Positions 5,618 to 37,127 of a stretch of 64,000 bases of DNA are shown here, piece by piece. This DNA is from Thermoclostridium caenicola. GTDB taxonomy: Bacteria; Bacillota; Clostridia; DSM-8532. The DNA lies in the NCBI RefSeq assembly GCF_900142095.1, contig NZ_FQZP01000001.1, positions 62,001 through 126,000 of the forward strand, written 5' to 3'. Positions within the stretch are counted from its first letter, which is position 1. Every line of letters starts with the position of its first letter. The notes below the pieces were generated by a model. That model saw only the letters and a program-made list of their open reading frames with translations, was not told the DNA's origin and did no database searches. The position numbers and the translations under genes were made by a program.

Positions 5618-6577
5618 CTATGCTTCCAGAAGCGCCATAACCTCTTCCAGGCGCGGCATGGCCGGAATGGCCCCTTTTCTTGTTGTGGCCAGGGATCCTA
5701 CCGCATTGGCGAAATTCACGGCATCCCGCAGCTCGTCAAAGGTCAGTTCCTGCAAACGACCGAAATACGGCCTGATCCTGAACAGGAATCCCCCGAGGAA
5801 GGCATCCCCGGCACCGGTGGTATCAATGGTCTTCACCTTGTCATAAGTCGGGAGCCTGTCATACTTCCCATCCATGCCAAAGAAGCATCCGTTCGGCCCC
5901 AGCGTGAGCAGGAGGATTCTGCCCCTGAACACCTCTGCCAGAAGCTCCGCACCTTTCTCCAAATCGGTCTGGCCTGTCAGGAAGATCAGCTCTTCTTCGG
6001 ATATCTTGAGAATATCGGCGTATTCCATACCCCTGATGATGACCTCCCGGGCTTCCTCCAGGCTGTTCCAGAGAGCAGGCCTCAAGTTGGGATCATAGGA
6101 TATGGTCTTGCCCAGTTCCCTTGCGAAGCGTGCCGCTCCCAGGGTCGCAGTCCTGGATGGCTCATGGGTCATGGATACCGAACCGAAGTGGAAGGCCTTT
6201 GCCTGCCTGATGACATCCTGGTCAACCTCTTCAAAGGTCAGCATCCTGTCCGCGCCGGGATCCCTGTAAAAACTGAAGCTTCTGTCACCGGTTCTGCTCA
6301 GATGCACAAAGGCCAGCGTGGTGTGGACCTTGGGATCAAACCTCAAACCCCTGTGGTCGATGCCATTCTGTTTCAGGATGTCATACAGAAAACTGCCGAA
6401 GGTATCCGAACCCACCTTGCCGATAAATGCCCCTGTTCCGCCAAGCCTGGTCATTGCGGCAAGCACATTGGCCGGAGCTCCGCCGGGATTGCACTCAAAA
6501 AGGGGATTGCCCTGCTCTGACACACCCGAAGGCGTAAAATCAATCAGCAATTCCCCTATTGCCGCTAAATCCAACAT
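5618..6577 (-). CDS. PfkB-family carbohydrate kinase, probable fructokinase
   Basis: The 319-aa protein shows the PfkB (ribokinase) fold: N-terminal AAIGELLIDF, the NPGGAPANVLAAMTRLGG glycine-rich signature, and the C-terminal TIDTTGAGDAFLGGFL motif holding the catalytic Asp and anion hole. Overall pattern and length are those of fructokinases that phosphorylate fructose with ATP, though the sugar is inferred. The ATG at 6577 was chosen because a GGTGAGG site lies seven bases upstream and family homology begins there; an upstream ATG at 6601 lacks a site. The gene appears monocistronic with its own terminator. Confidence 0.9.
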   Translation of the reverse strand: MLDLAAIGELLIDFTPSGVSEQGNPLFECNPGGAPANVLAAMTRLGGTGAFIGKVGSDTFGSFLYDILKQNGIDHRGLRFDPKVHTTLAFVHLSRTGDRSFSFYRDPGADRMLTFEEVDQDVIRQAKAFHFGSVSMTHEPSRTATLGAARFARELGKTISYDPNLRPALWNSLEEAREVIIRGMEYADILKISEEELIFLTGQTDLEKGAELLAEVFRGRILLLTLGPNGCFFGMDGKYDRLPTYDKVKTIDTTGAGDAFLGGFLFRIRPYFGRLQELTFDELRDAVNFANAVGSLATTRKGAIPAMPRLEEVMALLEA

Positions 6578-33955: not shown

Positions 33956-34145
33956 ATATGCATTATTTTGACAAAAATCATGCCACATGGATGACTTATC
34001 CCCATACCGGATGTTACAATATGGTTGAGGATAAACGCAAAAAACCTGTCAGACCGAATGACCCAATGAGCCGGCCCACAATACAGGGATGCTGACAGGT
34101 GACCGTGTGATCTACCACAATATGCGTGAAGGGGATGTTGCCGCT

Positions 34146-34556
34146 ATGTTATGGAAAGACCAGTATGAACTTGGCGTCCCTCAGATCGATGCGCAGCATA
34201 AGGAACTGTTCAGGCGCGTTGAATCTTTTCTGCAGGTCTTGCGATCGGGGGGCAACTGGGAAGAAAAAGTGCCGAAACTTAACGAAACACTGGAATTCAT
34301 GAAGCGATACGTTGTGGAGCATTTCCACGATGAAGAGGAATACCAGAGAAGCATCAATTATCCCGGATATGAAGCTCATAAACAGATACATAACGGTATG
34401 GTGATCTATGTGCAGGAGGTTACCAAGCAATATGAAGCGTCCGGCAACAAGGAGGACCTGATGCAGCAGTTTGGCGGAAGACTCCTGGCATGGCTGATCA
34501 ACCATGTGGCCGCAGAGGATCAGCGCATTGCGGATTATGCAAAAGGGAGAGGGTGA
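34146..34556 (+). CDS. Bacteriohemerythrin
   Basis: The 136-aa protein is a single hemerythrin domain that binds O2 at a di-iron site. Ligand motifs are in place: an early His in the DAQHKELFRRV segment (HxxxE type), HFHDEEEYQ, HKQIHNG and the C-terminal WLINHVAAEDQRI (HxxxxD). The start at 34146 (MLWKDQYELGV) matches the family N-terminus and has GAAGGGGATG upstream; the longer frame to 34089 adds unrelated residues. In anaerobes such proteins serve oxygen sensing or delivery. The chemotaxis-type gene follows seven bases later, suggesting a shared signalling role. Confidence 0.93.
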   Translation: MLWKDQYELGVPQIDAQHKELFRRVESFLQVLRSGGNWEEKVPKLNETLEFMKRYVVEHFHDEEEYQRSINYPGYEAHKQIHNGMVIYVQEVTKQYEASGNKEDLMQQFGGRLLAWLINHVAAEDQRIADYAKGRG

Positions 34557-34562
34557 GCGGAT

Positions 34563-35024
34563 ATGATGGATAAGCTTTACAAAGCCTTTGTCGACGCGAC
34601 AAGCCATGTCTTTCAACTGATGCTCAACATACCGGAGATTTCCGCCCATCCGGAAAAAACATTAAAATGTGACGAGGCAGTTGATATCGCCATCGGTATT
34701 GTGGGTGACCTCCAGGGCGAAGTGGTTTACCGCTTCCCTGTCGCCACATCTCTGAATATGGTTAAAATCATGAGCGGCATGGAGTTTGATGCGGTAGATG
34801 TTTTCGTGACTTCTGCCATATCGGAGGTAGCGAATATCATCAGCGGCAATGTGCTTACCGCCCTTTCGGGTGGGGATTTGCGGTGCGATATCTTGCCTCC
34901 GGTACAGCAAAAGCCCGATGAGGGCAAAGCTTATGAGATAGAATCAAGCTGCTGCATCTGTACGGCAATCGGCGAGATATGCCTGGAAATCCGGCTGAAT
35001 CGGGCTTCTCACATGCTTCACTGA
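34563..35024 (+). CDS. CheX-like chemotaxis phosphatase
   Basis: The 153-aa protein matches the CheC/CheX/FliY phosphatase fold. The single active-site motif ExxN is visible in SAISEVANIISGN near residue 84. The first half carries the CheX-type IVGDLQGEVVYRFP and NMVKIMSGMEF strands. Such proteins dephosphorylate CheY-P and related receivers. It lies six bases after the hemerythrin gene with a GTGAG site and is presumably co-transcribed. No other chemotaxis genes are nearby except the deleted receptor at 29676. Confidence 0.85.
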   Translation: MMDKLYKAFVDATSHVFQLMLNIPEISAHPEKTLKCDEAVDIAIGIVGDLQGEVVYRFPVATSLNMVKIMSGMEFDAVDVFVTSAISEVANIISGNVLTALSGGDLRCDILPPVQQKPDEGKAYEIESSCCICTAIGEICLEIRLNRASHMLH

Positions 35025-35065
35025 CGATTGACAAGAAGTCCGGTTATTGATAAGATAGCATTGAT

Positions 35066-35163
35066 TCTAAAAGGGAGTAGCTGTTAACGATAAGATCAAC
35101 ACGCTGGAGAAATCCTGGTCTTATCTGCTTTAACCTCTTGTTAAAGTAAGCGAGACTTTTAGA
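35066..35163 (+). promoter_or_regulatory. yybP-ykoY (Mn2+) riboswitch aptamer
   Basis: The two conserved ends of the yybP-ykoY class are visible: GGGAGTAGC at 35073-35081 and GCGAGAC at 35150-35156, closed by a P1 stem TCTAAAAG (35066-35073) with CTTTTAGA (35156-35163). The P1 3' strand is also the 5' strand of the following terminator, so metal binding should prevent termination. The class binds Mn2+ and commonly precedes UPF0016/Gdt1 exporters, exactly the gene found downstream. Confidence 0.88.
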
Positions 35164-35200
35164 TTATCAGAGTATGCCTGATAATCTAAAAGTCTTTTTT
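35154..35200 (+). terminator. Expression-platform terminator of the Mn2+ riboswitch
   Basis: A perfect 17-bp stem (35154-35170 with 35178-35194), a 7-base loop and six T residues. Its 5' arm overlaps the riboswitch P1 strand, giving two mutually exclusive folds. It lies 80 bases before the exporter gene. Confidence 0.92.
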
Positions 35201-35276
35201 ATTGCATAACGCAAAGCGCATCCTGATCGGGTGGAAGAAGAGCAGTTCTTATGGTATGGGGTGAAAAGAGAGAATT

Positions 35277-37127
35277 ATGATTCAGGAAATGATCAGGGCA
35301 TTTTTACTGATTTTTGTCGCGGAGATGGGAGACAAGACCCAAATTTTGGCCATGGCCTTTGCCACGCGTTTCCCAGTGGGAAAAGTCCTGTTGGGAATAG
35401 GCCTGGGAGCATTCCTGAACCATGGCCTGGCAGTCCTTCTGGGCAGTTACCTGTCCCAGCTGGTTCCCATTAACACCATCCAGATGATTGCTGGAGCCGC
35501 GTTTGTTGGGTTTGCCCTTTGGACACTGAAGCCTGAGCCGGAGGAAGACGAAGAAAAGGAAACACGTTTCCAGTTCGGGCCGACAGCCACAGTAGCCCTG
35601 GCTTTCTTCATTGGAGAGCTCGGCGATAAGACCCAGTTGACGGCCATCACCCTGGCCGCCGATGCCGGATATCCCCTGATGATCCTCGCAGGAACCGTTT
35701 CAGGCATGATAGCCACAGGGGCTTTGGGCATCATCATCGGCAAAAAGCTTGGGGACAAGATTCCGGAACTGGGCATCAAATTCCTGGCTGCCTCCATCTT
35801 TATGTTCTTCGGTCTGCAGAAGCTGTATCAGACAGTTCCCGCCCAATACTTAAGCCCTGCCTACGCGGCTCCCTTCCTCTGCATACTGGCCGCCATAGTC
35901 GCCTGGATGGTCTTCCTGCTCGTCCGCAGAAGGCGTGATGGCCTCCGGTCCGATTTTGCAGCCAAAGCAAAAATGCTGCATGACTATTACCTGCACCTGA
36001 AAGACGACCTGGATCAGATTTGCCTGGGTTCGGAGTACTGCTGCTCGTGCGAGGGAGACCAATGTGCTGTCGGCATGTCAAAAGCAATACTCCAGGCCGC
36101 ACTGGCTGAGCAGGACAGCCGGGAAGAGTCCCGGAACGACGGGCCAACCCATTGGGACAAGCCTTTCACGAAAGAGGCGGTATTGGATTCCCTGGTAGAT
36201 ACCTTATGGCTTATCAGCACCATCCGGGATGAAGACCGCCTGACCTCCGCCCACCGCATCCGCAATCAACTGGAAACCATCCTCCTGGGCCGGGCAATTG
36301 AGGAATTCGGAGACCTGGCTTCGTACATCGAATCGGTAAAGGAACGCGACGCCGGGCTGGCCAGGAAGATCGGCGGCATGCTCCGCATGAGAAAACCTTT
36401 TGAAGAACGGTTGCTGAATGTGGGCAACCGGATCAGCAACATCTACCTGGTTGAACTGCAGGAAGGCTATCTGCTGATCGATACCGGTTACCCGGAGCAA
36501 TTTGAGCGGTTTGAAAAAGCGCTGAGAAAGAAAAACATTGCGCTGGATGACATCAAGTACATTTTCATAACCCATGCCCATGACGACCATGTCGGTTTCC
36601 TGAACCGGCTGCTGGAAAGAACCCATGCGAAGGTCATCCTCCATCCCGAAACCATCGGGCGGATGGAGGCAGGACAAAACGCCTTCAGGGGCGGTTGCAG
36701 CAGCAGGCTGGCATGGTTCTTCTGCCAGCTGATGAAGCTCTTTGGCAAGGGAGATCACCGCTTCGAGCCGGTGGAGGCCTCTGACCGCTACATTCCGGTA
36801 ACGGGGAACACGCAGCAGGAAATAGAAAAAATGCTTTCGGCAAGGATTGTTTTCCTCCCGGGCCATACGGCCGATTCCATTGGCCTTCTGTTCGACAGCA
36901 AAGCGCTGTTCTGCGGCGATGCGGCCATGAACGGCTTCCCAAGCCGAAACCATGTAATCATCTGGATAGAGGATTTGGATGCCTACAAGGCCTCATGGGA
37001 AAAGATGACGGAAATGAATTTTCAGAAGGTATACCCCTCCCATGGAAAGCCTTTTGCGAAAGAGGAACTAGTCAGGCATACCGAAAGGCTTGAGAAAATC
37101 CGCCTCTACCCCTTAAGACATGCATAA
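35277..37127 (+). CDS. Gdt1/UPF0016 cation exporter fused to Cys-rich middle region and metallo-beta-lactamase-fold domain
   Basis: Residues 1-215 of the 616-aa protein are a complete UPF0016 (TMEM165/Gdt1, MneA-type Mn2+/Ca2+ exporter) with both ExGDK(T) motifs (VAEMGDKTQ near 14, IGELGDKTQ near 112) and six to seven helices. Residues about 225-375 are a soluble, helical region with a cysteine cluster (Cys255, 256, 258, 263). Residues 382-616 form a metallo-beta-lactamase fold with HAHDDH (433-438), GHTADS, GDAA and a late SHGKP, so both metal sites look complete. Usual family members are about 200 aa. The upstream Mn2+ riboswitch supports Mn2+ export; the hydrolase's role is unknown. Confidence 0.88.
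   Translation: MIQEMIRAFLLIFVAEMGDKTQILAMAFATRFPVGKVLLGIGLGAFLNHGLAVLLGSYLSQLVPINTIQMIAGAAFVGFALWTLKPEPEEDEEKETRFQFGPTATVALAFFIGELGDKTQLTAITLAADAGYPLMILAGTVSGMIATGALGIIIGKKLGDKIPELGIKFLAASIFMFFGLQKLYQTVPAQYLSPAYAAPFLCILAAIVAWMVFLLVRRRRDGLRSDFAAKAKMLHDYYLHLKDDLDQICLGSEYCCSCEGDQCAVGMSKAILQAALAEQDSREESRNDGPTHWDKPFTKEAVLDSLVDTLWLISTIRDEDRLTSAHRIRNQLETILLGRAIEEFGDLASYIESVKERDAGLARKIGGMLRMRKPFEERLLNVGNRISNIYLVELQEGYLLIDTGYPEQFERFEKALRKKNIALDDIKYIFITHAHDDHVGFLNRLLERTHAKVILHPETIGRMEAGQNAFRGGCSSRLAWFFCQLMKLFGKGDHRFEPVEASDRYIPVTGNTQQEIEKMLSARIVFLPGHTADSIGLLFDSKALFCGDAAMNGFPSRNHVIIWIEDLDAYKASWEKMTEMNFQKVYPSHGKPFAKEELVRHTERLEKIRLYPLRHA

Follow-up and report, generated by a model that had tools for sequence, protein, structure and literature searches.

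A single intact open reading frame on the forward strand of Thermoclostridium caenicola (positions 35277 to 37127 of the window, the 64,000-nucleotide stretch of DNA analysed here; ATG start, 616 aa) encodes a GDT1/UPF0016 transporter followed by a Cys-cluster domain and a metallo-beta-lactamase-fold (MBL) domain. This chain is a real protein architecture and a variant of the GDT1 exporters. No description of such a fusion was found in the literature or in family libraries. The explanation we prefer, and hold to be fairly probable, is that of a Mn2+-induced exporter, a GDT1-family Mn2+ (possibly also Ca2+)/H+ antiporter, whose chain also bears a cytosolic module for metal binding and a tethered hydrolase.

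The transporter part (35277 to 35942, aa 1-222, forward strand) is the complete exporter that the sequence-only reading had taken it for. It includes two GDT1 repeats (PF01169; E 1e-38, 132 bits against a Pfam cut-off of 27) with the signature motifs EMGDKT (16-21) and ELGDKT (114-119), whose E, G, D, K and T are invariant in an alignment of 16 homologues, and an acidic loop at about residues 83-104. Like TMEM165, Gdt1p, MneA and Mnx, it combines two three-helix repeats, an acidic central loop and both E-x-G-D-(K/R)-(S/T) motifs with an Mn2+ riboswitch. It differs from these proteins by an extra transmembrane segment, TM7 (about 194-216), and by the Cys-cluster and MBL domains, both predicted to be cytosolic. 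From the first loop to the segment following TM7, the K+R counts are 2, 0, 3, 0, 4, 0 and 8, which fits an N-out, C-in topology, and the acidic central loop of UPF0016 proteins is cytosolic (PMC7380456). Together, these place the N-terminus outside and, by inference, both additional domains in the cytosol. The genome carries a second GDT1 gene, a plain one of 262 codons (L056 5988-6776, on contig C43 of G000).

A scan of GTDB genome contigs recovered the same three-domain frame in four further MAGs, L035 (74% identity), L036 (71%), L037 (68%) and L038 (60%), the first being a contig of a genome of the same genus (G004). All five proteins share the junction (M)RKP-x-E-x-R in the alignment. The relatives being MAGs, and the genome of the window being split over 125 contigs, one might suspect assembly or binning of having created the 616-aa frame, a possible flaw that the sequence-only reading had itself pointed out. 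However, since four independent assemblies carry the identical junction at 60-74% identity, an assembly artefact is excluded and this explanation retains virtually no probability; the chain is a genuine one. The tree neither demonstrates nor rejects a single clade of three-domain proteins (AU test, p 0.148).

The same scan identified 11 loci, among them one from the isolate Acidaminobacter hydrogenoformans DSM 2784 (L049), in which the protein stops near residue 374, without an MBL domain. In a search with the family profile, this GDT1-Cys form, with open frames of about 366-420 codons, was found in about 20 of 391 genomes of the class and about 12 of 398 of the phylum, counts which are taken from match ranges and include split or partial matches. 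A 620-codon frame was observed only in the genome of the window within the same 391 and 398 genomes. The two-domain proteins, from Clostridia and their kin (L039-L049, L087-L094, L110-L114), share with the window protein the exporter and the Cys domain and, in most cases, the leader type of the gene; the MBL domain is confined to the window's form. Hence, the length of about 200 aa assumed at first for usual exporters does not apply in this lineage, where the exporter normally measures about 366-420 aa and GDT1 plus Cys domain is its ordinary form. As this pair is the common unit, the MBL domain alone is the unusual part.

The Cys-cluster domain (35943 to 36404, aa 223-376, forward strand) carries the motif C249-x5-C255-x2-C258-x4-C263. 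Cysteines had been noted at 255, 256, 258 and 263, and these residues are where they were said to be. The conserved set is a different one: C249, C255, C258 and C263 are invariant over the 16 aligned homologues while C256 varies. The helical nature attributed to this region is reproduced in an AlphaFold2 model of modest quality (pLDDT 76). Residues 225-375 have no Pfam match, the domain gives nothing above threshold against Pfam, NCBIfam and PHROGs, and comparison with the PDB by profile and by fold gave no significant match. That no solved structure resembles the domain and that the model is modest both count against our preferred explanation.

The region nevertheless constitutes a protein family, one without a Pfam or NCBIfam model, whose members also occur alone. 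The standalone form (L050, L051, L057-L086) is a soluble protein of about 147 aa, homologous to aa 238-376 of the window protein (standalone versus fused domain: hhalign probability 98.9%, E 1.5e-17). With a standalone homologue as query, matches were obtained in 49 of 299 genomes of the phylum sample (45 of the 267 good ones). About 40 of these are separate proteins of about 147 aa and the remainder are frames of 370-390 aa, corresponding to GDT1-Cys proteins, or the window's own. The Cys4 cluster, C-x2-6-C-x2-C-x4-C, is present in 25/26 standalone sequences, the exception being a shortened frame, and in 28/30 fused sequences, window included. A second cluster, C-x2-C-x2-4-H-x3-C, is found in 26/26 standalone sequences (all 26 read C-x2-C-x3-H-x3-C) but in 6/30 fused ones, and is absent from the window protein. 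The latter belongs to a one-cluster branch of the family, a membership which, the second cluster being absent, is based on the profile match.

Of 30 loci with a free member, about 11 have a gene for a rubrerythrin-like ferritin as its neighbour and about 11 a gene for a 236-242 aa protein of the NIR_SIR siroheme/4Fe-4S type, the neighbour identities being those assigned by Pfam to one example of each. In L050 (4883-5766), L051 (3971-4860) and L117 (2387-3276), the gene carrying the Cys4 and Cys2-His-Cys clusters lies directly upstream of the rubrerythrin-like ferritin gene; other genomes have it beside the small NIR_SIR gene, and the pair is conserved and without annotation. Such a neighbourhood, the presence of a two-domain gene (L087) near rubrerythrin- and rubredoxin-like genes and the pairing of a Cys4 with a Cys2-His-Cys cluster in anaerobe genomes are what one would expect if the domain bound an Fe-S cluster and acted as a redox or iron sensor gating Mn2+ export, so that oxidative stress would lead the cell to retain or release Mn2+. 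We regard this as a tentative possibility, since the Cys spacing suits structural zinc too, the second cluster has been lost in the window's branch and no fold match was found for the domain.

The C-terminal part (36405 to 37124, aa 377-616, forward strand) had been described as an apparently complete metal hydrolase, and its sequence agrees. Lactamase_B (PF00753) matches aa 383-589 over its full length (profile positions 2-196 of 196, E 3e-24, 89.5 bits against 22.7 for the domain alone), and the usual dinuclear ligand set is complete: H433, H435, D437 and H438 (H-x-H-x-D-H), H530, D548 and H589. All of these except H435 and D437 are invariant in an eight-row alignment. In one of the five three-domain proteins, L037 (1102-1839), HVHEGH replaces HxHxDH and the Asp is lost, so that this active site may be decaying or its activity may have been lost or changed; this too is counted against the preferred explanation. 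Known Lactamase_B hydrolases such as ST1585 (3adr), TTHA1623 (2zwr), the B3 beta-lactamase L1 and PqsE have the same fold and HxHxDH/H/D/H ligands, but are only about 16-22% identical to the window's domain. The latter falls far under every NCBIfam subfamily cut-off, with a best score of 56.1 bits against 240 among the equivalogs for beta-lactamase, RNase Z and glyoxalase II.

The MBL domain was added in frame to the C-terminal end, at about residue 375. Close standalone relatives, 44-50% identical, are present in about ten other genomes of the class and start within a few residues of the junction of the three-domain proteins. Their neighbours include nothing metal-related and no shared partner, which again weighs against the preferred explanation; the exception is a gene in two related genomes that, from its sequence, we take to be ADP-ribosylglycohydrolase-like. 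Downstream of the two-domain genes no MBL remnant was found. Genes for ODP-family (FprA-like) MBL proteins do occur near two-domain exporter genes of three genomes (L045 291-1511, L040 1370-2593 and L043 5951-6510), at a distance of 77 bases upstream in L045. The sequence-only reading saw in the hydrolase a possible metal-dependent effector or metal sensor coupled to export, a conjecture that the data neither bear out nor contradict. The MBL domain is missing from most of the near orthologues controlled by this riboswitch, which suggests that Mn2+ export can do without it. The domain might even be a passenger, acquired when a hydrolase gene, either adjacent or transposed, happened to fuse in frame, and working as it does when alone, with only induction and membrane site in common with Mn2+ export. 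The two-domain orthologues under the same riboswitch with no remnant downstream, the standalone relatives with no shared context and the rarity of the fusion, unique to the window's genome among the 391 class genomes sampled, are all compatible with this. We consider it unlikely, though by no means negligible: among the three-domain proteins pairwise dN in the domain ranges from 0.14 to 0.36 and dS exceeds 1 or is saturated, indicating purifying selection, and five lineages, whose proteins are as little as 60% identical, have retained the domain in frame under this selection.

The preferred explanation further includes induction by Mn2+, which depends on the leader. A sigma-70-like promoter (35028 to 35056, forward strand; TTGACA-17-TAAGAT with TG ahead of the -10) precedes a predicted yybP-ykoY-type Mn2+ riboswitch aptamer (35066 to 35163, forward strand) with P1, GGGAGUAGC in L1, UCAACA in L3, GCGAGAC and a multi-helix junction (fold z -2.7), and an intrinsic terminator of 19 pairs (35152 to 35203, forward strand; fold z -9.3). 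Most relatives have a comparable TTGACA...TAAAAT/TAGAAT ahead of the aptamer. The 3′ strand of P1 is also the 5′ arm of the terminator (35152-35163), which implies an ON switch. Matches to Rfam miRNA families at 35145-35203 were rejected, as they reflect only the terminator hairpin. According to a review, the yybP-ykoY element controls the UPF0016 gene in 328 of the 333 screened strains having a UPF0016 member (PMC7380456).

The window leader shares the L1, L3 and P1 core and the ON-type terminator logic with the yybP-ykoY family (RF00080) but has short helices, and its score is below the Rfam threshold: 18.6 bits at 35073-35148 (E 0.0008 searching 101 bases) against a gathering cut-off of 45. 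RF00080 gave no call at gathering score in the window or in any locus searched, a further point against the preferred explanation. The core elements (GGGAGUAGC, the UCAACA L3 and the P1 junction) nevertheless stand upstream of a cation transporter gene and, with the fold and the terminator, are kept in 11 homologous leaders, the window's and 10 orthologous ones. In these, seven pairs are changed on both sides in some row, although covariation support is modest because most pairs do not vary. The Mn2+ riboswitch of the sequence-only reading is thus recovered by core and fold in spite of its low score, and the leader is apparently of the yybP-ykoY type and a predicted ON switch. R1, a model built from the 11 leaders, scores 96.7 bits (E 2.6e-23) on the window leader, itself one of its training rows, and also matches upstream of distant two-domain genes, of a plain GDT1 gene (L124, from G007), of an Na/Ca exchanger gene (L122) and of P-type ATPase genes (L035 5902-6018 and L128).

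The three-domain gene of G004 (L035 292-6018) is part of a small Mn/Fe homeostasis cluster. Its neighbours there are an erythrin-VIT1 gene and a gene for a P-type cation ATPase, the latter preceded by a separate leader resembling the Mn riboswitch (5902-6018, minus strand). In the window, hemerythrin-like and CheX-like genes (34089-35024) precede the riboswitch, an arrangement not seen beside any orthologue inspected. In four genomes of the same family (L125 1501-1606, L126 1501-1607, L127 1501-1637 and L123 1501-1640), genes of the Na+-transporting oxaloacetate decarboxylase beta type are preceded by R1-type leaders whose L3 deviates, reading, for instance, UCGUCA instead of UCAACA. These leaders receive no Rfam call and could represent a yybP-ykoY-like aptamer with another ligand.

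In the scheme that we favour, high cytosolic Mn2+ would stabilise P1 of the leader and thereby remove the 5′ arm of the terminator, judging from sequence and fold, so that the gene is turned on. The seven-TM transporter would, as its family suggests, expel Mn2+, while TM7 would bring the C-terminus into the cytosol, where the Cys4 domain probably holds a metal or cluster and has a tuning or sensing role. In a few lineages the GDT1-Cys unit has been extended at its end by in-frame fusion with the gene of a soluble MBL-fold hydrolase, and the MBL domain, with its complete metal site, would most likely be an active hydrolase tethered at the export site. More speculatively, and with a low probability in our estimate, the Cys-cluster family could be a hitherto unrecognised module with which anaerobes sense metals or redox state. 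It would work by itself in the neighbourhood of rubrerythrin-like and siroheme proteins and would have been built into Mn2+ exporters as a gate; the exporter of the window's lineage would then be a transporter-enzyme whose hydrolase controls, or is controlled by, Mn2+ efflux.

The analysis exposes a branch of Mn2+-riboswitch-like leaders missed by Rfam. It also reveals that the GDT1 exporters of many anaerobic Firmicutes include a conserved, probably cytosolic Cys domain for which Pfam and NCBIfam have no model and which about one-seventh of the sampled phylum genomes encode as a protein of its own. Through this domain, a connection of Mn2+ export with anaerobic iron/peroxide chemistry becomes testable, and the rare fusion of transporter and hydrolase offers a handle on the role of the hydrolase.
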